Positions 1,426 to 17,026 of a stretch of 20,777 nucleotides of DNA are shown here, piece after piece (position 1 is the first letter of the stretch; every line of letters starts with the position of its first letter). A model generated the notes under the pieces. The model worked only from the letters and a program-made list of their open reading frames with translations. It made no database searches and was not told the DNA's origin. Source of the DNA: a virus. The position numbers and the translations under genes are program-made. Location of the stretch: positions 1 through 20,777 of the IMG/VR virus record IMGVR_UViG_3300025009_000403. One strand, 5' to 3'.

Positions 1426-2226
1426 CTACGTGGGAGCCTCTGGATATTGTCGTATGCGTAAATCTTCCGGCCATTCTGCGAGGTTATGCGACACTTTGCC
1501 ATTTAGCGAAAGCTGTTTTATAAATAAACTTACATCAGCTGCTTGGCACTGACGCACTATATCCCGCACCCATTCGATTTTGCAGGGCCTACGGTTGGGG
1601 CCGGATTCGCAACCGATAACCACAAAATCAATACCGGGACAAACTGGCTTTGCCCCCGGTCTGCCAAGTGGCGTAAGCCAATCCCTTTTCTCGTTAAACA
1701 GGCTCATCGATCCTAATAACGGCTCCAGCGACAACCAGTGAATAGCGGCGGGAATGTCCAGCAATTTCGGTATCCGCTTTTCTGCCCATTCCTGATTTTC
1801 GCAGGATACTCCAAGCCAGACATTATCCATTTGCTCGGCAAAATTATTGTCGTAAAAATACTTGAGGGAAATGCCCATTCTTTCTGGCCGCTTGGTTAGC
1901 AATAAAAAGGTGTGTTCACAGCAACTCATTATTCTGAAAATATCTTCTATCTCTTTCCCACGCATATTTATTTGTTCGTGGAATAAGTCGCCCATGCTGC
2001 AAACGAAAATCCGGCAAGGTTTTTTCCAGCGCAAAGGCTGTTCAAATCTATCAGGCCAAATTCTAATATCAAAGGGATGTCTGCTATCATCAGGATAAGT
2101 CCCCATTTCCCGCAAACGACAGGCAAATCTCTTGGCGTAACAATTCTGACAACCAAGACTGACCGGCGTACAGCCAGTTACCGGATTCCAAACCTTGTCC
2201 GCCCATTGTATTTTTGTATTAGCCAT
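1426..2226 (-). CDS. Phage Gp37/Gp68 family protein (DUF5131)
   Basis: Encodes 266 aa with the family opening MANTKIQWADKVWNPVTGC. Three early cysteines (C19, C26, C29, in TGCTPVSLGCQNCYAKR) form the hallmark C-x6-C-x2-C cluster, followed by the conserved FVCSMGDLFHE, LLLTKRPER, WLGVSCENQ and VIGCESGPNRRPC blocks. The cluster resembles an iron-sulfur site of radical-SAM-like enzymes; the true activity of the family is not known to me. The frame extends to 2250, but the ATG at 2226 matches the family start and overlaps the upstream stop by 8 bases (ATGGCTAA). Length is normal and all motifs look intact. Confidence 0.9.
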   Translation of the reverse strand: MANTKIQWADKVWNPVTGCTPVSLGCQNCYAKRFACRLREMGTYPDDSRHPFDIRIWPDRFEQPLRWKKPCRIFVCSMGDLFHEQINMRGKEIEDIFRIMSCCEHTFLLLTKRPERMGISLKYFYDNNFAEQMDNVWLGVSCENQEWAEKRIPKLLDIPAAIHWLSLEPLLGSMSLFNEKRDWLTPLGRPGAKPVCPGIDFVVIGCESGPNRRPCKIEWVRDIVRQCQAADVSLFIKQLSLNGKVSHNLAEWPEDLRIRQYPEAPT

Positions 2227-2515
2227 TTTTCTTTTTCCATTCAATTTCACAATCGGTACTGCACCAGGTTAGATTCGGATTGCAAAGTTTATGACATTGT
2301 GGACAAGTCTTTTTCACGTTCCATTGGTCCATCGGGACCAGCTTTTCATACCAGCCTTTGTATTTCCAACGGTCGGATTGCAGCCGAGCACGCAAAGACC
2401 AAACCAGCCAAAGCAACAACAAAAGTAGAGCGGCCCAAATAGCAATCAAAACCGAGAATAACCATTCGCCACCCTCTGCAATTCTCTCCAGCAGTCTGTA
2501 GGTTTTATCATTCAC
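2219..2515 (-). CDS. Membrane-anchored small protein with a C-terminal zinc-ribbon-like motif
   Basis: Encodes 98 aa. One long hydrophobic segment (WLFSVLIAIWAALLLLLLWL, about residues 18-37) is followed by a basic stretch and four cysteines near the end (CPQC, C and C in a CPQCHKLC...WCSTDC pattern) that could bind zinc. The frame is open to 2659, but the GTG at 2515 has AAGGA eight bases upstream and overlaps the previous stop by 8 bases (GTGAATGA), so it is chosen. It probably sits in the inner membrane with the cysteine domain in the cytoplasm. Function unknown. Confidence 0.65.
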   Translation of the reverse strand: MNDKTYRLLERIAEGGEWLFSVLIAIWAALLLLLLWLVWSLRARLQSDRWKYKGWYEKLVPMDQWNVKKTCPQCHKLCNPNLTWCSTDCEIEWKKKNG

Positions 2516-2780: not shown

Positions 2781-2999
2781 TTCGCTTCTCTTTTATTATT
2801 AGTTTCGCCTTCGGCATCCAATACTTCCAATGGGCAACAGCTTCTAGTGCCCCTTTCTTGTTATCGAAACTTTATAATAGCCCTCCTTACAATTGGGCAT
2901 ACTTACAGACACCAACCATTGAGGCAGATATTTAGGATTGCCTTTGGGAAAAAACGGGCCAGCCGTAATAATTGGTTCAAATCCTTTTTCTTTAGACAT
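2773..2999 (-). pseudogene. Small phage gene broken by a one-base frameshift
   Basis: The ATG at 2999 opens a frame that stops early at 2844 after 51 codons. From about 2870 a different frame continues without a stop to 2773 and is clearly protein-like (NKKGALEAVAHWKYWMPKA). The second frame ends in the same 8-base overlap (ATGTCTAA) with the next gene that other junctions here show, so the two halves were once one gene. The span is 227 bases, one short of the 228 needed for a 75-aa protein. The break lies between about 2860 and 2880, near the run reading TATAAAGTTTCGATAAC. It may be a real mutation or an assembly error. No function is recognised. Confidence 0.65.
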
Positions 3000-3309
3000 T
3001 TTGCTTTCCTTTCGCAGAGGAGATTGCGGTTTCTAGTTCTTCTCGTACGGGCAAGGTTCGGTGCACCAAATCCGTAGTATATGCCAGCATATTTAAGACA
3101 GACAGCGAATGCTTACACGCCTTCAGCAACTCCTGGGCATGGTCGCAGGCGGGATACTTTACTGCCAACTCATCCGCTATTTCACGCTTTGTTTTTGTAA
3201 GTTTCTCATTACAGCAATATCTCAAGCAATCGTGCCATGCCTGACGATAAAGCCCAATGGCCACTTCCTTAAACGGTGTGTCAGTATATTTTTCTGTTTC
3301 CAGTGTCAT
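2992..3309 (-). CDS. Hypothetical protein, paralogue of the gene at 3983-4249
   Basis: Encodes 105 aa starting MTLETEKYTD. The start at 3309 has AAGGAG seven bases upstream in the repeated GGAGCCGGCAAATG cassette; the longer open frame to 3384 lacks a site. The last 60 residues (from CDHAQELL onward) are nearly identical to those of the gene at 3983-4249, with the shared core CKHSLSVLNMLA; the N-terminal halves differ. The shared half is predicted helical. It overlaps the next gene by 8 bases (ATGTCTAA). Function unknown. Confidence 0.7.
   Translation of the reverse strand: MTLETEKYTDTPFKEVAIGLYRQAWHDCLRYCCNEKLTKTKREIADELAVKYPACDHAQELLKACKHSLSVLNMLAYTTDLVHRTLPVREELETAISSAKGKQNV
3027..3157. 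repeat. Direct repeat copy 1 (second copy at 4024-4154)
   Basis: About 131 bases are repeated in the same direction 997 bases further right with roughly a dozen mismatches and no gaps. Both copies encode the 3' half of a small leftward gene, so this is a gene-internal duplication. Confidence 0.85.
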
Positions 3310-3320
3310 TTGCCGGCTCC

Positions 3321-3755
3321 TTATTCTAAAATCGTTTTGCCGTTCCATTTGCAGTCTTTGACCAGGGCCAGAAGGGGTTTCCAAGCCACAGCGTGGCTAT
3401 CATCGTAGATTTTCCAAGCCGCAGCGCAGCTGTCATTGTAGGTTTTCCAAGTCGCAGCGCGGGCGTCCTCGTAGATTTTCTTAGCCGCAGCGCAGCTTTC
3501 CAGGTAGATTTTCCAAGCCGCAGCGCGGCTGTCCTCGTAGGTTTTCCCAGCCGCTGACGGCACAGACCAAATGTGGCGCAGGCGGATCAATATCTCTTTT
3601 TGCGGCTTTTTGTTAACTATGTAATACACCCGCTCCATCAAGTTATGGGTCAGTTCCGCGACCGGCCCGTCGTGGTGTAAAAACGTGAACCAACCTTTCT
3701 GCGGACCCCTTTTCAGGCGGTTGTACTCGGCTTGCTGTGTTTTGGTCAGTTTCAT
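3321..3755 (-). CDS. Protein with five alanine-rich 11-residue repeats
   Basis: Encodes 144 aa. The N-terminal 65 residues are a globular-looking segment (KGWFTFLHHDGPVAEL, then a helical part). Residues about 70-125 are five tandem 11-residue units of the type AAAWKIYDDSR, then a short tail ending WNGKTILE. The pattern of A, A, W/K, I/T and Y every 11 residues suggests a long right-handed or hendecad coiled coil; repeats rich in AAW-AR units are common in phage proteins of unknown role. The start at 3755 has AAAGGAG with good spacing and follows the previous stop by one base. Confidence 0.75.
   Translation of the reverse strand: MKLTKTQQAEYNRLKRGPQKGWFTFLHHDGPVAELTHNLMERVYYIVNKKPQKEILIRLRHIWSVPSAAGKTYEDSRAAAWKIYLESCAAAKKIYEDARAATWKTYNDSCAAAWKIYDDSHAVAWKPLLALVKDCKWNGKTILE
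3379..3543. repeat. Five tandem 33-bp repeats inside a gene
   Basis: Five consecutive 33-base units, each starting TTCCAAGCCGCAGCGC or a close variant, begin at 3379, 3412, 3445, 3478 and 3511, with part of a sixth after 3544. Units differ at several positions but keep length and frame, so they encode 11-residue protein repeats. Copy number could change by slippage or unequal recombination. Confidence 0.9.
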
Positions 3756-3756
3756 T

Positions 3757-3990
3757 TTAGGCTCCTTTTAGCTTCTGTAGCAATAACTCAATCGCCAATC
3801 GTGCGTGGGCAGACTTATGTAGGGGGTCAAACACAGCGTCGCCTTCTTCATGGCTTGCAATCCACCATTTCTTGTTCCGATAAAACGAACCAACTATCTG
3901 ATTGTTGTACAAGAACGCATCTGAACATTCATCGTCCATATCCCAGCCCAAAGCCTCAGCCAGTTTAGCGATAAGTTTGCTGTCAGTCAT
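3757..3990 (-). CDS. Hypothetical protein, 77 aa
   Basis: Starts MTDSKLIAKLAEALGWDMDD, followed by beta-like segments (NNQIVGSFYRNKKWWIAS), a DP motif (FDPLHKSAHARLAIELL) and a C-terminal helix. The order helix, strands, FDP, helix is reminiscent of phage ABA-sandwich proteins, but the match is too loose to name. The start at 3990 overlaps the upstream stop by 8 bases (ATGACTGA), with AAAGGG as ribosome binding site. Confidence 0.7.
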   Translation of the reverse strand: MTDSKLIAKLAEALGWDMDDECSDAFLYNNQIVGSFYRNKKWWIASHEEGDAVFDPLHKSAHARLAIELLLQKLKGA

Positions 3991-4249
3991 TTGTCGGCCC
4001 TTTCGGCTGAGCAGAGGCGATGGCGGTTTCTAGTTCTTTTCGTACGGACAAAGTTCGGTGCACCAAATCCATAGTATCCGCCAGCATATTTAAGACAGAC
4101 AGCGAATGTTTACACGCCTCTAGCAACTCCTGGGCATGGTCGCAGAGGGGATATGCATTGGCAATTTGGTTAACTGTTTTGTGCATGCGATAATAAAAAG
4201 GGCCGCCTCTCTTGAAGGTTTCAATTAACGCCTCCCTAAACTGAGTCAT
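3983..4249 (-). CDS. Hypothetical protein, paralogue of the gene at 2992-3309
   Basis: Encodes 88 aa, starting MTQFREALIE at 4249 with GGAG seven bases upstream. From residue 34 on it matches the paralogue almost residue for residue (CDHAQELLEACKHSLSVLNM); the first 33 residues are unrelated. One copy therefore arose by duplication of the 3' half or by recombination onto a different 5' half. It overlaps its downstream neighbour by 8 bases. Confidence 0.7.
   Translation of the reverse strand: MTQFREALIETFKRGGPFYYRMHKTVNQIANAYPLCDHAQELLEACKHSLSVLNMLADTMDLVHRTLSVRKELETAIASAQPKGPTND
4024..4154. repeat. Direct repeat copy 2 (first copy at 3027-3157)
   Basis: Second copy of the 131-base duplication, at a constant offset of 997 bases from the first, roughly 92 percent identical by eye, within the 3' half of a small leftward gene. 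Confidence 0.85.
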
Positions 4250-4439
4250 TTGCAGGCTCCTTTGATTCATTTTGAGTACACAGAACATCTTTTTGCGGTT
4301 CAATAGGAATCAATAGTAAGTAATAACTCCTCGCCGCAGCGACTTTACTTAATTTGACCGCATGAACCGGGCAGCAAAATGATTCATTCTGTCCTGCCCA
4401 GGTGTAACGATGTGAGGCTACCGCTCCGCACTTAGTCAT
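4236..4439 (-). CDS. Small zinc-finger-like protein
   Basis: Encodes 67 aa. The N-terminal half has the pattern C3-...-H, then C22-C23-x2-H26 in MTKCGAVASHRYTWAGQ followed by FCCPVHAVKL, like small phage proteins with a C, C, H zinc knot. The C-terminus ends in KEPANDSV because the ribosome binding cassette of the next gene is translated in this frame. The start at 4439 has AAGGAG in the repeated cassette and sits in an ATGA overlap with the upstream gene. Role unknown. Confidence 0.65.
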   Translation of the reverse strand: MTKCGAVASHRYTWAGQNESFCCPVHAVKLSKVAAARSYYLLLIPIEPQKDVLCTQNESKEPANDSV

Positions 4440-5229: not shown

Positions 5230-6486
5230 TTACTCCCCTTGGCTGTTTCTTCCTAAATGCTTGGTCAACTGATCTGTCAACTGTTCCGTCCGGTTCTCGA
5301 CATCTTCGACCTGAATATCTACCACTGAGCCAAAATCAAATTCTCCCGATTTGTCGTCGAGTTCCAAGGCTTTTTCCAGCTCGGCGCTCATGGGCAGATA
5401 CTTGCACAGCCGCCTAACCACTGTCTTGCGCCCCATCTCGCTAAAGTGCTGTTTCCAAGGACCATCGGGTGCATTACCCATCTTGCTCATGCCTTGGATA
5501 CGCTTGACATCGGAAACAGTCATCATCTCGATTTGCTTGCTTCCACCTTTTAATCCGGCGACACCATAGAAGGCAATAAATTCCTCTTTGCGGTCTGCAC
5601 CCAGATATGGTTCATGCTCAACCATTGGATTTGTTCCGAATTTGACTGTAAATTTATCCTGAGCATAGACCGGGTGGACCTCGATATAGTCTATCTCATT
5701 AGACCTTCGGGCCAAGTCGATAAGGCCTCGGTAGCCAGGTATGAGCTTACATTCCGTTCCATAGGGTATTAGGTAAGCTGCACCGAGCGTACCCGAACAA
5801 TCCAAGCCCAGCTCAGAGGCTTCCATAAGGGCCTTGCCTATCGACTTCTCATCACATTTGAACAGTTTTGGTGTCTTGGAAAAGGCCACATAAAGAGCCT
5901 TAAACATTCTCTCTGGGGTAATATGCTGCGGGAGCATACCAGCGATACTTTCCCTCATGCCTTCCGCCAGACTTTTCAGATTCTTGAAGTTTTGTATGGG
6001 AGCATCGGGCTTAAAGTGATGTTTGACAATCTGGGTTGCCTGCTTTGGAGATTCTTCAGGGGCTTTTTCTACGGATACTGTTCTGGCGGCTTTCCTAGTT
6101 TGGGGCTTAGGCTTTAGGGCTTCAATCTCCTCATGGCTCAGGCGTGGTGGCTTTGGCACATAGGGGTCTTTGCGGTTCATCGGCGGCATGTCCGCAGGCT
6201 CCCCAAACTCGTCTGTAGGGTCCTCGCCGGCCTCTGCCGCTTGCTCAGCTTGTATAGCGTCATATTCAGCCTTTAGCTCGTCCTCAGTCATTTGATGCCC
6301 AGGCGGGGCCGGGACAAAATCTTCCCGTTCTGACGGTGGCACATCTTGGTCAGGCGGTGGTTCTTGGTCTTCACTAACCGCTAATCTCGCCTTCTGCTCC
6401 TGAAGTTTGGCTTTGGTTTCCGCCGCCTGCGGTTGATTCGAGAAATCGGTCAGGTGCTTCTGTGCTGCTGGGGTACGGCGATACAT
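5230..6486 (-). CDS. recT: RecT-family single-strand annealing protein with a long acidic N-terminal extension
   Basis: RecT proteins anneal complementary single strands made by a partner exonuclease, driving phage recombination and repair. Residues about 165-395 carry the family core: ITPERMFKALYVAFSKTPKL, LGLDCSGTLGAAYLIPYG, LIPGYRGLIDLARRS and the late segment around WKQHFSEMGRKTVVRRLCKY. The preceding 160 residues are Pro/Glu/Asp/Lys-rich and likely disordered, so at 418 aa the protein is well above the usual 270-320. The C-terminal tail is acidic. The start at 6486 has AAAGGAG seven bases upstream. Its exonuclease partner lies upstream at 7301-8239, separated by an HNH gene that looks inserted between the pair. 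Confidence 0.92.
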   Translation of the reverse strand: MYRRTPAAQKHLTDFSNQPQAAETKAKLQEQKARLAVSEDQEPPPDQDVPPSEREDFVPAPPGHQMTEDELKAEYDAIQAEQAAEAGEDPTDEFGEPADMPPMNRKDPYVPKPPRLSHEEIEALKPKPQTRKAARTVSVEKAPEESPKQATQIVKHHFKPDAPIQNFKNLKSLAEGMRESIAGMLPQHITPERMFKALYVAFSKTPKLFKCDEKSIGKALMEASELGLDCSGTLGAAYLIPYGTECKLIPGYRGLIDLARRSNEIDYIEVHPVYAQDKFTVKFGTNPMVEHEPYLGADRKEEFIAFYGVAGLKGGSKQIEMMTVSDVKRIQGMSKMGNAPDGPWKQHFSEMGRKTVVRRLCKYLPMSAELEKALELDDKSGEFDFGSVVDIQVEDVENRTEQLTDQLTKHLGRNSQGE

Positions 6487-6513: not shown

Positions 6514-7158
6514 TTATCCAAACAATCGTAATTGACTGGGTATTCTTCCTGATCCTTTTTGTATATTGCATCTTGGGCAGGTTACGGCAACGTTTCGATA
6601 ACTATGTTCGCCACCTTTAGAAAGCGGGATGAGATGGTCTAAATGCCAAGCATCAGATTTCAACTTTTTTCCGCATAAATGGCAACATCCACCATCGCGC
6701 TCAAAAACAATTTTATAATCTACATGTTCAACAGCCACTTTTCTTTTTCGTGCCTGATATTCTATGCAGTACGCTTTTACTTTTTCAGGATTCCTTTGTC
6801 GCCATTTGACGCCGTTAATATATTGCTTTTCACGATTGTTTTTACGCCACTTAGCTGTTTTTATTTTTATTGATTCCCTGTGTGCTTTTGCCCATTTCTC
6901 GTGAGATTGTTTGTATTTTTCCGGATTAGCAGTTGCCCATTTCCTCCAAGAATTCTTGGCTTTTTCAGGATTTTCATTTCTCCATTTAAGGCGTTTTGCC
7001 TTGACGAATTCGGGATTTGCGTGTCTCCATTTAGCACTAAATATGTGTTCGCAATCTTTGCAATAAAAACCAAGACCATCTTTCATAGATCGGTTTTTAT
7101 TAAACGCGTTTATAGGTTTGGTTACATGACATTTTGGACAATGTTTTTCGGCAACCAT
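6514..7158 (-). CDS. HNH endonuclease with zinc finger and NPEK repeats (HNH-1)
   Basis: Encodes 214 aa. An N-terminal zinc finger (C7, C10, C33, C36) is followed by about seven 13-residue units of the type KWRxxNPEKxKA (residues 42-140), then a C-terminal HNH domain with C159, C162, the H172-L-D-H175 active-site motif, N-rich loop and C194, C197. It should be a site-specific nuclease; the basic repeats probably grip DNA. It lies between yqaJ and recT, typical of a free-standing homing gene. The start at 7158 has no AAAGGAG, unlike most genes around it, and lies 23 bases after structured element E1. The open frame upstream of 7158 is the RNA element, not coding. It is closely related to HNH-2 in the HNH domain. 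Confidence 0.88.
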   Translation of the reverse strand: MVAEKHCPKCHVTKPINAFNKNRSMKDGLGFYCKDCEHIFSAKWRHANPEFVKAKRLKWRNENPEKAKNSWRKWATANPEKYKQSHEKWAKAHRESIKIKTAKWRKNNREKQYINGVKWRQRNPEKVKAYCIEYQARKRKVAVEHVDYKIVFERDGGCCHLCGKKLKSDAWHLDHLIPLSKGGEHSYRNVAVTCPRCNIQKGSGRIPSQLRLFG

Positions 7159-7181
7159 ACTATTAAGACTCAATAACAAAA

Positions 7182-7275
7182 GAGGCCCTAGACCGTGGAC
7201 AAGCCTCAGCCGATGAGGTAGGACGGTTTCGGGCCTCGATTTTGTCTGGCAATTAATTCGGCTTTCAGCTTGTCC
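7182..7275 (-). ncRNA. Pseudoknotted leader RNA element E1 upstream of HNH-1
   Basis: On the minus strand, in order: GGACAAGC (7275-7268); a 30-base loop ending CAAAATC; GAGGCCC (7237-7231) and ACCGT (7227-7223); hairpin CCTCA/TGAGG; GCTTGTCC pairing site (7204-7197); ACGGT (7196-7192); GGGCCTC (7188-7182); then TTTTGTTATT. The first strand pairs with a site enclosed by the second stem, so this is an H-type pseudoknot. The outer stem plus U-rich tail looks like an intrinsic terminator or attenuator. The same order and spacing recur at E2, E3 and E4 with unrelated stem sequences. Confidence 0.7.
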
Positions 7276-7283
7276 ATACCTGT

Positions 7284-7311
7284 AAGTTATCATAATGATT
7301 TCATTTGTCAA
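7284..7311 (-). promoter_or_regulatory. Promoter in front of element E1
   Basis: The -35 TTGACA (7311-7306) lies inside the last codons of yqaJ. A 16-base spacer leads to a weak -10 TAACTT (7289-7284). The expected start point falls 1-3 bases before the first pairing strand of E1. Confidence 0.55.
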
Positions 7312-8239
7312 GAGTGTTTTCGGAATTATTTGATGATTTTTCTTGTTCGAGTAACATTTTCTTCAAAGGTTCCGGCAAACCTTTGGGCAATACCCGCAAG
7401 GTGCGTACCGTAGTCGCCTTGACTTCGTAACCTTTGCGGTTTGATTCGAGATAGGTTAAGGCCCCTGATTCGCCCATATCTGCACATTCCGCATCGCCGA
7501 GATAGGACAAGACTTGGGCCTTGAGCGTATCGGCGTATTTTTCTGCATCGCCGGCTAGGGCTTTAGCAGCCTGCCAGTTATCAAAGGTGGTAAATTGTTC
7601 AGGACCAAAGACCACAATTTTATTGGGCGTGCGTATTACCCGCCGGATAAGGTTCAGCGAGGGAATTGAACCTGTCGGCGGTATATCGGGGATAACGTGC
7701 TTCATCCAGAAGTCCTGCGCCGCTTCCAGTAATACGGCGATAAGCTGCTCGTTGCGAGGCACTTGGTACATGCCAAATCCTCTACCACCCAAGAAGGTTG
7801 ATACCCAGCATAGCTCTTGTTCCAAGGCTTTCATGTGTATCTGAGCTTGGCAGATAACCCGGTCCGGCACTTGATCTGTCCCCGTATCGCCCCAGTCCTC
7901 AGTCAAAGGTCCGTATAAACCGGCAGTCTTAGCCTCGACAGGTTGGCCGCTTTCGACCACAATAGCATCAATGGAAGTCCTTATCATCGTACCTTCTATA
8001 GCTCGCCGCTGATTGCGTTTGATTTTGCCAAGCTGTTCCTGGGTATAATTCAGCAAGGCTTCCTCGAATACCGTCCCAGCTTTGGCAGGTTCGCCAATAT
8101 CTTCCTTGACCACCTTGCCGGTCTTTTCTAAAAAGACATCGAAACTGGTTTTGAATTTATCCATGCCAACTAAAGCAGCTACGTCTGAGCTACCAATATA
8201 ATTCTTACGTCTTTCTTTCTCGAAAATTGTGATGGGCAT
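7301..8239 (-). CDS. yqaJ: YqaJ-type viral recombinase exonuclease
   Basis: A PD-(D/E)XK nuclease of the lambda-exonuclease-like fold that digests one DNA strand to feed RecT. Visible motifs: RKNYIGSSDVAALVG (residues 11-25), the conserved GTVFEEALL (E59/E60), SIDAIV (D91), the VEAKTA motif (E102, K104) and the CQAQIHM helix (Q131, Q133). Length of 312 aa is normal. The start at 8239 has AAAGGT seven bases upstream and follows the previous stop by three bases. Its last codons carry the -35 box of the HNH-1 promoter, suggesting that the HNH unit was inserted or has adapted right at its 3' end. Confidence 0.93.
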   Translation of the reverse strand: MPITIFEKERRKNYIGSSDVAALVGMDKFKTSFDVFLEKTGKVVKEDIGEPAKAGTVFEEALLNYTQEQLGKIKRNQRRAIEGTMIRTSIDAIVVESGQPVEAKTAGLYGPLTEDWGDTGTDQVPDRVICQAQIHMKALEQELCWVSTFLGGRGFGMYQVPRNEQLIAVLLEAAQDFWMKHVIPDIPPTGSIPSLNLIRRVIRTPNKIVVFGPEQFTTFDNWQAAKALAGDAEKYADTLKAQVLSYLGDAECADMGESGALTYLESNRKGYEVKATTVRTLRVLPKGLPEPLKKMLLEQEKSSNNSENTLDK

Positions 8240-9188: not shown

Positions 9189-9851
9189 CTATCCAAATAA
9201 GCGAAGTTGACTTGGCAATCTTCCTGGTCCTTTTTGCATATTACATCGTGGACAAGCTACCGCCACATTCCGATAAGAATGTTCGCCGCCCTTTGATAAT
9301 GGGACAATGTGGTCCAGATGCCAGCCATTTATTTTTACTTTCTTCCCACAAAGATGACACCGGCCTTCGTCTCGTCTGAAAAGTATAGTTCTCTCTACCT
9401 TTTCACAGGTTGCCCGTCGTCGCTGTGCGCGGCGCAAAGCAACAGCGGACCGTACTTTATCCGGATTAGCTTTTCGCCAAGCCCGCCAAAGGGCTTTTAT
9501 TCGTTCTGGATGAGCTTTCCGCCAAGCGAGGTTATTGGCTTTCACTTGTTCTGAATTATCTTTTTTCCATTTGGCATAATTTGCTTTCACTTTTTCTGGA
9601 TGAGCTTTTTTCCATTTATTACATGCAACGCTTCGCTTTTCTGGGTGGGCTTTTCGATATTTAGCATCACTTATTCTAGCCTTTTCTGGATTAGCTTTCC
9701 GCCACTTCTTTAGATATTCCGGATGAACTTTTCGCCAGGCAATCGCTGCTGCTTTAACCTTATCCGAATTAGCTTCTCGCCATTTTTTACTCGCAGCCCT
9801 TGACTTGTCAGGATTGTCCGCTACCCATTTTCGTAAGCGCTCAATTGACAT
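9189..9851 (-). CDS. HNH endonuclease with about ten NPEK repeats (HNH-2)
   Basis: Encodes 220 aa. Nearly the whole N-terminal 155 residues consist of 10-13-residue basic units (WRKAHPEKVKA type), then an HNH domain with C165, C168, the H178-L-D-H181 motif and C200, C203, ending QLRLFG exactly as HNH-1 does. It lacks the N-terminal zinc finger of HNH-1 and has more repeats, so the repeat number evidently changes. It is likely a mobile, free-standing site-specific nuclease. The start at 9851 lies 17 bases beyond element E2 and has no strong ribosome binding site, only GAG. The open frame upstream to 9956 is the RNA element. Confidence 0.88.
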   Translation of the reverse strand: MSIERLRKWVADNPDKSRAASKKWREANSDKVKAAAIAWRKVHPEYLKKWRKANPEKARISDAKYRKAHPEKRSVACNKWKKAHPEKVKANYAKWKKDNSEQVKANNLAWRKAHPERIKALWRAWRKANPDKVRSAVALRRAQRRRATCEKVERTILFRRDEGRCHLCGKKVKINGWHLDHIVPLSKGGEHSYRNVAVACPRCNMQKGPGRLPSQLRLFG

Positions 9852-9868
9852 ATCATAACTCAAAAACA

Positions 9869-9972
9869 CTAAGCCCCACGGTTGTGAAAACAATACAGAC
9901 CAGAAGGCGTGTATTACCTTGGGGCTTAGGAAATTTCTTGAGATTGCACGGTCCATACTATTTTCACAACCG
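9869..9972 (-). ncRNA. Pseudoknotted leader RNA element E2 upstream of HNH-2
   Basis: On the minus strand: CGGTTGTGAAAA (9972-9961); 31-base A-rich loop; CTAAGCCCCA (9929-9920); hairpin AATACA/TGTATT; TTTTCACAACCG (9890-9879); immediately TGGGGCTTAG (9878-9869); then TGTTTTTGAG. Both stems are perfect (12 and 10 bp) and interlock as an H-type pseudoknot with no base between the last two strands. A U-run follows, so the 10-bp stem is terminator-like. This is the clearest copy of the family. Confidence 0.8.
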
Positions 9973-9973
9973 T

Positions 9974-10002
9974 AATATAAAAGACTTATTACTCTGTGTC
10001 AA
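9974..10002 (-). promoter_or_regulatory. Promoter in front of element E2
   Basis: TTGACA (10002-9997), a 17-base spacer, then TATATT (9979-9974): a good sigma70 match. The -35 box is inside the last codons of the transglycosylase-like gene, as with E1 and yqaJ. The expected start point falls within the first pairing strand, leaving about 7 bp of that stem. Confidence 0.75.
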
Positions 10003-10504
10003 GAGAATTTAATATTTTTTCTATGTCTTTCCAATAATTCAAAGTACAAGAGTTATAAGGTCCTTTTGGGCCTCCTGCCCAAGCTCGGCTCCAGATTTCG
10101 GGATTGCCTTGCGGATAGTAATGATTCTGGTAAATCTCAAACATTTGGCGGGCCTTAGACGGGCTAAAAGCATCATCATGACTATAGATTTGACGGCCTA
10201 ATATCCGGTTCACATCTGCCACCATAATCGGCCTTATCTGGGCTATCCCCCAAGCCTGCTCCGATTCGTTCACGGCATCGGGCCGGTTGCTTGATTCCTG
10301 CTGACAAATGGCTTGCCATGTTAGTTCAAAATCTAAGACTGGCGGTTCGGCGGTGGCTGTGGGGATAACAGCCGAGGGAGCTTTCCCGCCAGTCTTTATT
10401 TTCGCCGGACTGCTGCGGATTACACGCGGTTCCGACAACAGCCCGGCCACAATGATAAGAGTGCAACCGATAACAATGTAGATGATGATTGCTGTTTTGT
10501 TCAC
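9989..10504 (-). CDS. Membrane-anchored lytic-transglycosylase-like protein
   Basis: Encodes 171 aa from a GTG at 10504 (GTGA overlap with the previous stop); an ATG at 10519 is the alternative. A hydrophobic segment at residues 5-24 (AIIIYIVIGCTLIIVAGLL) is a signal anchor, followed by a Pro/Ala/Lys linker. The domain from about residue 62 has WQAICQQESSNRPDA, where E70 is the expected catalytic glutamate, then AWGIAQIRP and later a YN/WK segment. These fit the SLT/lysozyme-like fold that cleaves peptidoglycan glycan chains. The second half is divergent. Placement in an early operon is unusual; it may help entry or act on the host wall. Confidence 0.65.
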   Translation of the reverse strand: MNKTAIIIYIVIGCTLIIVAGLLSEPRVIRSSPAKIKTGGKAPSAVIPTATAEPPVLDFELTWQAICQQESSNRPDAVNESEQAWGIAQIRPIMVADVNRILGRQIYSHDDAFSPSKARQMFEIYQNHYYPQGNPEIWSRAWAGGPKGPYNSCTLNYWKDIEKILNSLDTE

Positions 10505-10686
10505 GGCCAATCTACCCATCGCTGGATCATGACTTCGACTAAACTTTGACGGGATTGACTATTGTATTCGACCACATCTATCCTCTGCACTTGGCCTATC
10601 TCATCCAGACTGCCGCGCGGCACAGCCTCGTCAAAGAGGTTCAGAATTACATCATCTTCCGGTACTGATAAGTTTAATCTGTTCAT
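10501..10686 (-). CDS. Small acidic hypothetical protein
   Basis: Encodes 61 aa, starting MNRLNLSVPEDDVILNLFDE, acidic in the first half and ending in RWVDWP. The ATG at 10686 has AAAGGTG a few bases upstream; an ATG at 10701 would overlap the alpha-CTD-like gene and has no site. No domain is recognised. Confidence 0.6.
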   Translation of the reverse strand: MNRLNLSVPEDDVILNLFDEAVPRGSLDEIGQVQRIDVVEYNSQSRQSLVEVMIQRWVDWP

Positions 10687-10690
10687 GTTT

Positions 10691-11065
10691 TCACCTTTCA
10701 TTTCGCAGCACCAACCCTAAACGAGCTACGCTGGCTTCGATTATGCCTAACCGAGCCGGTCCGATGTCGCGGATACTTAGCACCTCTTGGCGAGTCAAAT
10801 TGACAAGCTGACACACTCTGTTTATATTGGCCCTTTGTAATTTATAACGTATTACCGGCTGATTAATGATGGGCGAATCATTAAATTTTTCCCATAGTCC
10901 GCGAGAAAGTTTCGTCTGTTCTTCGAGAATAGCAGCTACCAAGTAGAGAGCGAATTCTTGTTTGTTCTTTATCAGGTTATTCGGTGTTAGACATTCTTCG
11001 TTGGAATATCCCCAGCTGTTCTCAATCATATATCGCCCAAGTTGTGCGAAATTAGAGTGGCTCAT
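10691..11065 (-). CDS. Protein with an RNA polymerase alpha-CTD-like domain
   Basis: Encodes 124 aa. Residues about 72-120 (KLQRANINRVCQLVNLTRQE, then VLSIRDIGPARLGIIEASVA and RLGLVL) follow the helix-hairpin-helix pattern of the C-terminal domain of bacterial RNA polymerase alpha subunit: RANIN, then LxxLxxxEL, the I-R-x-I/F-G turn and the LxELGL-like end. In the cell this domain binds promoter UP elements and activators. The first 70 residues are unrelated and helical. It lies directly downstream of an HTH gene, so a role in transcription control is plausible, though HhH folds also bind DNA nonspecifically. The start at 11065 has AAAGGA seven bases upstream. Confidence 0.7.
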   Translation of the reverse strand: MSHSNFAQLGRYMIENSWGYSNEECLTPNNLIKNKQEFALYLVAAILEEQTKLSRGLWEKFNDSPIINQPVIRYKLQRANINRVCQLVNLTRQEVLSIRDIGPARLGIIEASVARLGLVLRNER

Positions 11066-11277: not shown

Positions 11278-11289
11278 TATTTGTGCTCC

Positions 11290-11341
11290 TTTTTACCCTT
11301 AGACATCATAACTTCTGTTACTAAGCTGTCAAGGGTAAAAA
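11290..11341 (-). promoter_or_regulatory. Promoter with inverted-repeat operator of the HTH gene
   Basis: On the minus strand TTGACA (11332-11327), a 16-base spacer and TATGAT (11310-11305) form a near-consensus promoter. TTTTTACCCTTAGACA (11290-11305, plus strand) and TTTTTACCCTTGACA (11341-11327, minus strand) are the same motif in opposite orientation; one covers the -35 box and the other begins at the end of the -10 box. A dimer of the adjacent HTH protein bound here would block the promoter. Confidence 0.8.
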
Positions 11342-11361
11342 CAAGATAAATGCAAATTATT

Positions 11362-11679: not shown

Positions 11680-11788
11680 TTTCAGCTCCTTTATTCCAGA
11701 ATCGTTTCCCCGTTCCATCTTCGGCCATCAGGTCCTTGCGAGCCAAACTTACGACCTTACCATCTTCAGTCAAATGCTTATTTCTCAT
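11669..11788 (-). CDS. 39-aa hypothetical peptide
   Basis: A short frame starting MRNKHLTEDGKVVSLARKDL. It overlaps the upstream stop as ATGA (11785-11788) and the downstream start by 11 bases, and its codons carry the AAAGGAG of the next gene. No ribosome binding site of its own is seen, so it would depend on translational coupling. No domain is recognised. Confidence 0.5.
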   Translation of the reverse strand: MRNKHLTEDGKVVSLARKDLMAEDGTGKRFWNKGAENDF

Positions 11789-12963: not shown

Positions 12964-13061
12964 ATGCAAGCTATCTTTCCGATCCCCTTATACAAAATAT
13001 GCCAAACCTGCGCCAGTGCTATTCCTTCGGGACTATAGCTTGCATCCTGGCCGGGTTTGGC
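12964..13061 (+). ncRNA. Pseudoknotted leader RNA element E3 upstream of HNH-3
   Basis: In order: ATGCAAGCTAT (12964-12974); 26-base loop ending CAAAATAT; GCCAAACC (13001-13008) and GCCAG (13012-13016); a small TTCC/GGGA hairpin; ATAGCTTGCAT (13035-13045); CTGGC (13047-13051) and GGTTTGGC (13054-13061); then TTTATTGATT. The 11-bp and 13-bp stems interlock as a pseudoknot. The HNH-3 ATG lies 19 bases after the last stem. Confidence 0.75.
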
Positions 13062-13080
13062 TTTATTGATTAGTAGAAAA

Positions 13081-13491
13081 ATGCCTAAAAGATTATCGGC
13101 CCAAGTAAAAACCATAATCTGGCGTGCCGGACCGGATTTTGGCACACTAAAGCTAAAAAGTCTGTATGCACTATCAAAAGACGATCAGGCTGTAATATGG
13201 AGAAGAATTAAGCGATATGAGACTGGCAAAAAATATGTAGCTCGACATAGAGCCTTATATCGTCGGCATTTACCTGTTTTAGACAGGCGAGAGATATATG
13301 CCAGGGGTAAGGGAAAATGCTATTTATGCGGTCAGAAAGTCCTATGCGATAAATGGGAAATGGACCATGTCTGGCCATTGTCTAAAGGTGGAGAACATTC
13401 TTACCGAAATATAAGAGTCGCTTGCTCAAAATGTAATAAACACAAATGGACAAGAATCCCTGTTAATTTTCAGTTTGGTTTGTTTGATTAG
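13081..13491 (+). CDS. HNH endonuclease (HNH-3)
   Basis: Encodes 136 aa. The C-terminal half is an HNH domain with C80, C83, the E-M-D95-H96 motif, the PLSKGGEHSYRN block shared word for word with HNH-1 and HNH-2, and C115, C118. The N-terminal half is basic and helical and lacks NPEK repeats. A frame start at 13057 lies inside element E3, so the ATG at 13081 is chosen; it has no AAAGGAG. It is the first gene on the rightward side, between the leftward promoter and the replication genes, probably a mobile homing-type nuclease. Confidence 0.85.
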   Translation: MPKRLSAQVKTIIWRAGPDFGTLKLKSLYALSKDDQAVIWRRIKRYETGKKYVARHRALYRRHLPVLDRREIYARGKGKCYLCGQKVLCDKWEMDHVWPLSKGGEHSYRNIRVACSKCNKHKWTRIPVNFQFGLFD

Positions 13492-16606: not shown

Positions 16607-17026
16607 ATGTTAAAAAGACGGGATGAATTTCCAGGTATAGATTTTACAATAGGCTTACCGAAATGTGTAATGTGCCATTCGTACATTTCGACATCCACTA
16701 AAATCCGTAGGCCAGGGCAGAAATACTGTTCGGACAAATGCCGAGGCGAGGCAGCCAGATTTCGCCGTAAAATTTCGCCTGCTAAAGAACCGGCATATTT
16801 ATCTTTGCGATTTAACATACTTGCCAGAGACAATTTTACATGCCAATATTGCGGAAAAACACCTCAAGACGGAGCAAAACTCGTTGTTGACCATATAAAT
16901 CCACAAAGCAATGGTGGTAAATCTATAGAAACCAACCTTGTAACGGCTTGCCAGGAATGTAACGGCGGCAAAAAAGACATTTTATTGACAGAAAGACAGT
17001 CTCGCAAGTTAAGATTAGGCAAATAA
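16607..17026 (+). CDS. HNH endonuclease of a different family (HNH-4)
   Basis: Encodes 139 aa. An N-terminal zinc finger (C20, C23, C41, C45) is followed by an HNH domain of the common type: RDNFTCQYCG (C79, C82), VVDHINPQSNGG (D95, H96), N110 and C115, C118. It is not closely related to HNH-1, -2 and -3, having a different block after the catalytic histidine. AGGAG lies six bases before the ATG, unlike the other three. It is likely a free-standing homing-type nuclease or a packaging-linked HNH protein; its place shortly before the late module and terminase allows either. Confidence 0.85.
   Translation: MLKRRDEFPGIDFTIGLPKCVMCHSYISTSTKIRRPGQKYCSDKCRGEAARFRRKISPAKEPAYLSLRFNILARDNFTCQYCGKTPQDGAKLVVDHINPQSNGGKSIETNLVTACQECNGGKKDILLTERQSRKLRLGK

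Follow-up and report, generated by a model that had tools for sequence, protein, structure and literature searches.

Phages often redirect the host RNA polymerase via the tail of its alpha subunit (PMC7552054). What, then, is the role of a small viral protein that ends in a domain resembling that tail, and that is encoded directly behind a helix-turn-helix (HTH) regulator? We address this question for P0001, a protein of 124 residues encoded in an IMG/VR virus record of 20,777 bases, the whole of which was analysed and is referred to here as the window. A preliminary description of this DNA had recognised in the last 50 residues of P0001 the pattern of the C-terminal domain of the alpha subunit (alphaCTD). 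We examined how far that resemblance goes, which features of the alphaCTD have been lost, and which functions are compatible with what remains.

Genomic context of P0001

The preliminary description had located the gene correctly at 10691-11065 but gave no strand; it lies on the minus strand (Table 1). Its ATG is preceded by a plausible ribosome site, AAAGGA, and the start lies 11 nt past the stop of the HTH gene, which is read in the same direction. The same DNA, identical over P0001, is present in a second viral contig (IMGVR_UViG_3300025117_000200), and one distinct P0001 sequence is known. Searches for relatives returned only the near-identical contig among the viral contigs and none among the phages or the genome contigs, while a search of plasmids matched Listeria rpoA at E=0.2. 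The assignment of P0001 to a phage is borne out by the RecT protein, the YqaJ-type exonuclease, the terminase and the replication initiation protein encoded on the same contig. When the terminase was used to search for a host, the genome contigs gave no match, and the phages gave only distant terminases with 25-28% identity and very mixed hosts. Neither tRNA genes nor Rfam families were found in the window.

Two sister contigs, L014 and L015, share 99.5-99.9% identity with the window on the right-hand side of position 11715 and are unrelated to it on the left, with a sharp junction, indicating that the HTH-P0001 region borders a variable segment. P0001 is therefore probably, though not provably, accessory; L015 ends about 1.8 kb beyond the point of divergence, too early to show the presence or absence of P0001.

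The adjacent HTH regulator named in the preliminary description was confirmed, and it belongs to the Cro/CI type. The HTH-P0001 pair is preceded by a near-consensus sigma-70 promoter, in a region where other sites score equally well against the consensus. A perfect inverted repeat flanks this promoter, its arms touching the -35 hexamer and the start region. The repeat, which falls within 11278-11361, is likely to be the autoregulatory operator of the 66-residue HTH protein. Further copies of the putative operator in the window were no more frequent than expected by chance. At the other end of P0001, the overlapping ORF of 66 residues is likely to be translationally coupled to it. The near-identical contig (L016/L002) carries about 75 extra bases at window positions 10503-10507, together with many differences in the adjoining 100 bases; this position coincides with the junction of the 66-residue ORF and a lytic-transglycosylase-like ORF (9989-10519).

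Table 1. Positions of P0001, its parts and the neighbouring features in the window, with the basis of each assignment
Feature	Position	Strand	Basis or remark
RecT single-strand annealing protein	5230..6486	-	PF03837 1.7e-38
YqaJ/RecE-like exonuclease	7301..8239	-	PF09588 1.7e-14, phrog_434 1.1e-47
66-aa ORF overlapping the end of P0001	10501..10701	-	no Pfam, PHROG or NCBIfam match
P0001, 124-aa ORF with alphaCTD-like C-terminal domain	10691..11065	-	ORF and ribosome site; same DNA in second viral contig
alphaCTD-like segment, P0001 residues 76-123	10697..10840	-	phmmer, NCBIfam and Pfam matches to RpoA CTD; AlphaFold2 and Foldseek
P0001 N-terminal residues 1-63, predicted helical, without detectable relative	10877..11065	-	
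Cro/CI-type HTH regulator, 66 aa, directly upstream of P0001	11077..11277	-	HTH_3 45.6 bits against cut-off of 23; phage repressor PHROGs
Left arm of perfect 11-nt inverted repeat, TTTTTACCCTT	11290..11300		downstream side of promoter
Near-consensus sigma-70 promoter TTGACA-16-TATGAT, before the HTH-P0001 pair	11305..11332	-	11/12 matches, consensus match only
Right arm of perfect 11-nt inverted repeat, AAGGGTAAAAA	11331..11341		touches -35 hexamer

Some features elsewhere in the window are recorded here in their own right. The ORF at 3321-3755 (minus strand) contains in-frame 33-bp repeats of the A-A-W-K-I-Y-x-D-S-x-A type, visible in blastn self-comparison as offsets at multiples of 33 bases. 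A duplication of 143 bases with 91% identity (3014-3156 and 4011-4153) lies inside the ORFs 2992-3384 and 3983-4303, both on the minus strand. Four ORFs appeared HNH-endonuclease-like by eye: 13057-13491 and 16607-17026 on the plus strand, and 6514-7311 and 9189-9956 on the minus strand, the latter two having long repeats of the K-x-N-P-E-K-x-K type in common. Finally, the ORF at 1426-2250 (minus strand) gave a distant match, far below the model's cut-off, to a radical-SAM mobile-pair family (TIGR04471, E=1.3e-13).

The C-terminal part of P0001 resembles the alphaCTD

The resemblance of the P0001 tail to the alphaCTD is beyond chance, though weak in score. A phmmer search of all PDB chains matched residues 76-123, without gaps, to the alphaCTD of B. 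subtilis (E=1.9e-4), and residues 60-124 submitted alone gave E=5.3e-5. Seven NCBIfam models matched P0001, six of them RpoA models and the seventh a model for a short hypothetical protein (best E=2.7e-4). In Pfam, PF03118 was the sole family at E<=1, with E=0.0095 and 16.1 bits, which is under its gathering threshold of 23.8 bits. Against an alphaCTD profile built from 63 phage and bacterial sequences, P0001 scored 19.0 bits; the highest score among 10,000 shuffles of its sequence, matched in composition, was 10.7 bits. The stretches RANIN and IRDIG, on which the preliminary description had relied, are both present in P0001, and its alphaCTD call is upheld by these profile scores and by the predicted structure. 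Only what follows the first helix is covered by the sequence match; the first helix itself does not match. It is in this helix of the alphaCTD that the main DNA-contact residues of alpha are found.

AlphaFold2 run without an alignment gave P0001 a pLDDT of 39, with the tail helices nonetheless placed in alphaCTD order; this model was left out of the fold search. When P0001 was aligned with 17 full-length viral proteins carrying an alphaCTD (A7) and this alignment was supplied, the pLDDT rose to about 80-91 in the tail and 53-68 in the N-terminal half. A different alignment, in which P0001 was combined with tail fragments, put the first helix in the wrong place and was discarded in favour of A7. 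In a Foldseek search of the PDB with this model, ranks 1-46 were occupied by RNA polymerase alpha or complexes containing it, and isolated alphaCTD domains superposed with an rmsd of 1.6-2.7 Å, or 1.6-2.3 Å in the top matches, and a TM-score, normalised by target, of about 0.6-0.8. The first match of another kind was a RAD51-paralogue complex at rank 47 (E=0.13). A better structural match to a repair-type helix-hairpin-helix (HhH) domain, which the preliminary description had named as the result that would speak against its call, was thus not seen. In a library of viral structures, the two best matches were phage proteins of 128-133 residues annotated as "RNA polymerase, alpha subunit, C-terminal". 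The model has the compact four-helix fold of the alphaCTD, towards which it was biased by the choice of alignment. Since A7 is made of alphaCTDs, the prediction is not independent of the fold assumption; what the model shows is that the sequence of P0001 can be accommodated by the alphaCTD fold.

P0001 has lost the known DNA contacts of the alphaCTD

In structures of the alphaCTD with DNA, N294, G296, K298 and S299 belong to the same DNA-contact surface as R265 and N268. The last two make the contacts to the backbone and the minor groove of the DNA (PMC11434276). In P0001, R265, N268, N294, K298 and S299 are all replaced, and G296 is the only one of the contact set to be retained. The ungapped match places D at 294, G at 296, A at 298 and R at 299. 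In all alignments made, the positions of R265 and N268 were unmatched or replaced, and R73 of P0001 could be aligned to R265 only in a gapped alignment that deletes two residues of the helix.

Proteins with an alphaCTD are also encoded by annotated phages, namely Bacillus phage Goe8, Microbacterium phages such as Mazun, Mycobacterium phage Marley1013 and Ruegeria phage vB_RpoS-V16. The alphaCTDs of Goe8, Mazun gp26 and RpoS-V16, which were found without using the contact motif, retain R265, N268, N294, G296 and S299. A scan of viral contigs with bacterial alphaCTDs gave 64 loci, including proteins of 115-124 residues and longer fusions with sigma-70 region 4. These loci also retain the contact residues, a conservation that is partly built in, because the collecting patterns contain these motifs. 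P0001 is not alone in its loss, as Mecenats66 ORF34, a Morganella phage protein, and some others are also without R265. We conclude that P0001 is probably the docking module of a divergent regulator, and not a promoter-competing copy of the alphaCTD.

The preliminary description had called the N-terminal 70 or so residues of P0001 of unknown type, and in agreement with this, no relative of that part was detected in Pfam, PHROG or NCBIfam. Only 75 residues precede the alphaCTD-like match, and they do not include an alpha N-terminal domain attached by a linker. The net charge is -2 in the N-terminal 63 residues and +6 in the C-terminal 61. A homology of the N-terminal part to a family of phage alphaCTD proteins of about 120 residues, which a helix of the "AY..A..ML.R" type had suggested by eye, was rejected, as P0001 scored in the middle of the shuffles. 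A comparison of P0001 with this family alone in hhalign was weak (E=0.021, probability 2%).

Possible functions of P0001

The reading that we prefer, with a probability of roughly 0.4, is that P0001 is an early accessory regulator, in which a degenerate alphaCTD fold serves as a docking module in partnership with the HTH protein. P0001 would be a small early, and probably accessory, phage protein composed of a helical N-terminal part and a four-helix domain of the alphaCTD type, related to HhH domains. It would be co-expressed with the Cro/CI-type protein from the promoter at 11332-11305, and the latter protein probably regulates this promoter by way of the inverted repeat around it. The tail of P0001 may offer a docking surface for the HTH protein, for host sigma region 4 or polymerase, or, more loosely and through an arginine-rich face, for DNA. 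In this way the pair could adjust transcription of the leftward early operon, without P0001 acting as a functional substitute for the tail of alpha itself. Bridging with the HTH protein, as the preliminary description had suggested, is plausible. A functional link between the two genes is suggested mainly by analogy: in three of the viral loci an HTH, sigma-70 region 4 and an alphaCTD occur in a single protein (L023:2946-3803, L029:3335-4198 and L063:3179-4207). The genes immediately adjoining 22 other viral alphaCTD genes, 44 in total, gave no match to an HTH family, so that proteins of this kind are not generally encoded beside an HTH gene.

The same survey of neighbours bears on a serious rival, in which P0001 is an HhH-type accessory DNA-binding protein of the recombination module, aiding the YqaJ exonuclease and RecT. 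Recombination families were matched by 10 of the 44 neighbours, at 6 of the 22 loci (YqaJ 5, ERF 3, Sak 1, RecT 1), although this is a raw count without a control rate and the contigs are partly redundant. It is this count that makes the rival serious. YqaJ and RecT are encoded on the strand of P0001, about 2.5 and 4.2 kb further downstream. In loci L055, L057, L066, L070, L048 and L034, small alphaCTD genes lie beside, and several times between, an annealing protein (ERF, Sak or RecT) and a YqaJ exonuclease, and the P0001 hairpin "DIGPARLGII" resembles the general HhH hairpin. Both types of gene are, however, typical of early regions, and in the window P0001 does not directly adjoin the recombination genes. 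Moreover, no Pfam HhH family (e.g. PF14520, HHH_5) matched P0001 at E<=1, in a search where the HMMER filters drop weak matches. On balance we regard a role in recombination as unlikely.

P0001 might also be purely an adaptor between proteins, which mimics the activator- or sigma-contact faces of alpha and sequesters host activators or sigma, its DNA binding having been lost. The disappearance of the DNA-contact residues from a domain that has kept its hydrophobic core, and a "RA-IN" stretch in common with the B. subtilis alphaCTD, speaks for such an adaptor, and phages are known to have several routes onto alphaCTD-dependent transcription (PMC7552054). We nevertheless consider this unlikely: the matched part of P0001 does not include the alpha segment before the first helix, and the recognition of a contact face needs conservation, whereas P0001 is one sequence. 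A broader form of this idea would take P0001 as the representative of a class of phage regulators whose alphaCTD fold no longer binds DNA but mimics the protein contacts of alpha, and thereby links an HTH repressor to the host polymerase or shields it from the polymerase. This is a long shot, but if true, it would show, with the fusions of HTH, sigma region 4 and alphaCTD as further examples, that regulators have repeatedly been assembled from polymerase parts in phages.

The preliminary description had put forward, among other possibilities, a decoy or substitute alphaCTD, with P0001 competing for UP elements or tethering the polymerase to phage promoters. The predicted fold would suit this, and there is an AT-rich stretch upstream of the operon's own -35 hexamer. 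Competition for UP elements is nevertheless not supported, and an UP-element decoy is unlikely, because of the replaced contact residues. The contacts lost in P0001 are kept in Goe8, Mazun gp26 and RpoS-V16, and P0001 is without the alpha N-terminal domain for polymerase assembly, so that we consider this reading very improbable. No more credit can be given to the possibility that P0001 is an unrelated small helical phage protein with a fortuitous likeness to the alphaCTD. The Pfam score under the cut-off, the weak hhalign result and the single distinct sequence could be invoked for it, but independent searches all select the RpoA CTD over the same residues and the profile score exceeds that of every shuffle.

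Comparison with known systems

Small phage proteins ending in a domain of the alphaCTD type are already annotated in databases and are fairly common in viral contigs. Their presence in the 64 viral loci and in annotated phages suggests that P0001 belongs, as a divergent member, to a kind of protein that is known but uncharacterised; our search of the literature found no functional work on any alphaCTD-like protein encoded by a phage. P0001 itself, one sequence from an uncultured source, is a modest find. Being divergent and without the known DNA contacts, it could help to separate the role of the fold from that of its DNA-binding face.

Compared to the alphaCTD of the polymerase itself (PF03118; best matched by B. 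subtilis RpoA, PDB 1z3e_B and 3gfk_B), P0001 has its predicted helices in the same order and a TM-score, normalised by target, of 0.70-0.76, but it lacks the alpha N-terminal domain and the motif of the first helix, and its score remains under the family cut-off. In size, and in the layout of a short N-terminal part with the alphaCTD at the end, P0001 corresponds to the phage proteins annotated as alpha C-terminal (BFVD A0A6J5QDR9 and A0A6J5MNY7, and the family L039-L061 of 115-124 residues). Unlike P0001, the L039-L061 family matches PF03118 strongly (E=4.5e-20; 71.6 bits for L039) and retains the DNA-contact residues, and its N-terminal sequence is unrelated to that of P0001. The ORF34 of Morganella phage Mecenats66, annotated as DUF2591, shares with P0001 a C-terminal alphaCTD-like domain without R265, ending in "...PGIGTGLLRLINDDLKRFGLKL", but it has 188 residues and a different N-terminal half. 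Direct similarity searches between the two gave nothing significant.

A close parallel to the gene pair is provided by the HTH_3 - sigma-70 region 4 - alphaCTD fusions L023, L029 and L063, an architecture of which we found no description in the literature. Seven more proteins (L019, L025, L028, L030, L032, L035 and L058) combine sigma region 4 with an alphaCTD. We consider the viral family of HTH - sigma region 4 - alphaCTD fusions a better lead than P0001. These fusions carry in one chain the Cro/CI-type HTH and the alphaCTD that are encoded by two neighbouring genes in the window, and they differ from P0001 in having sigma region 4 between the two, and an alphaCTD that is normal.
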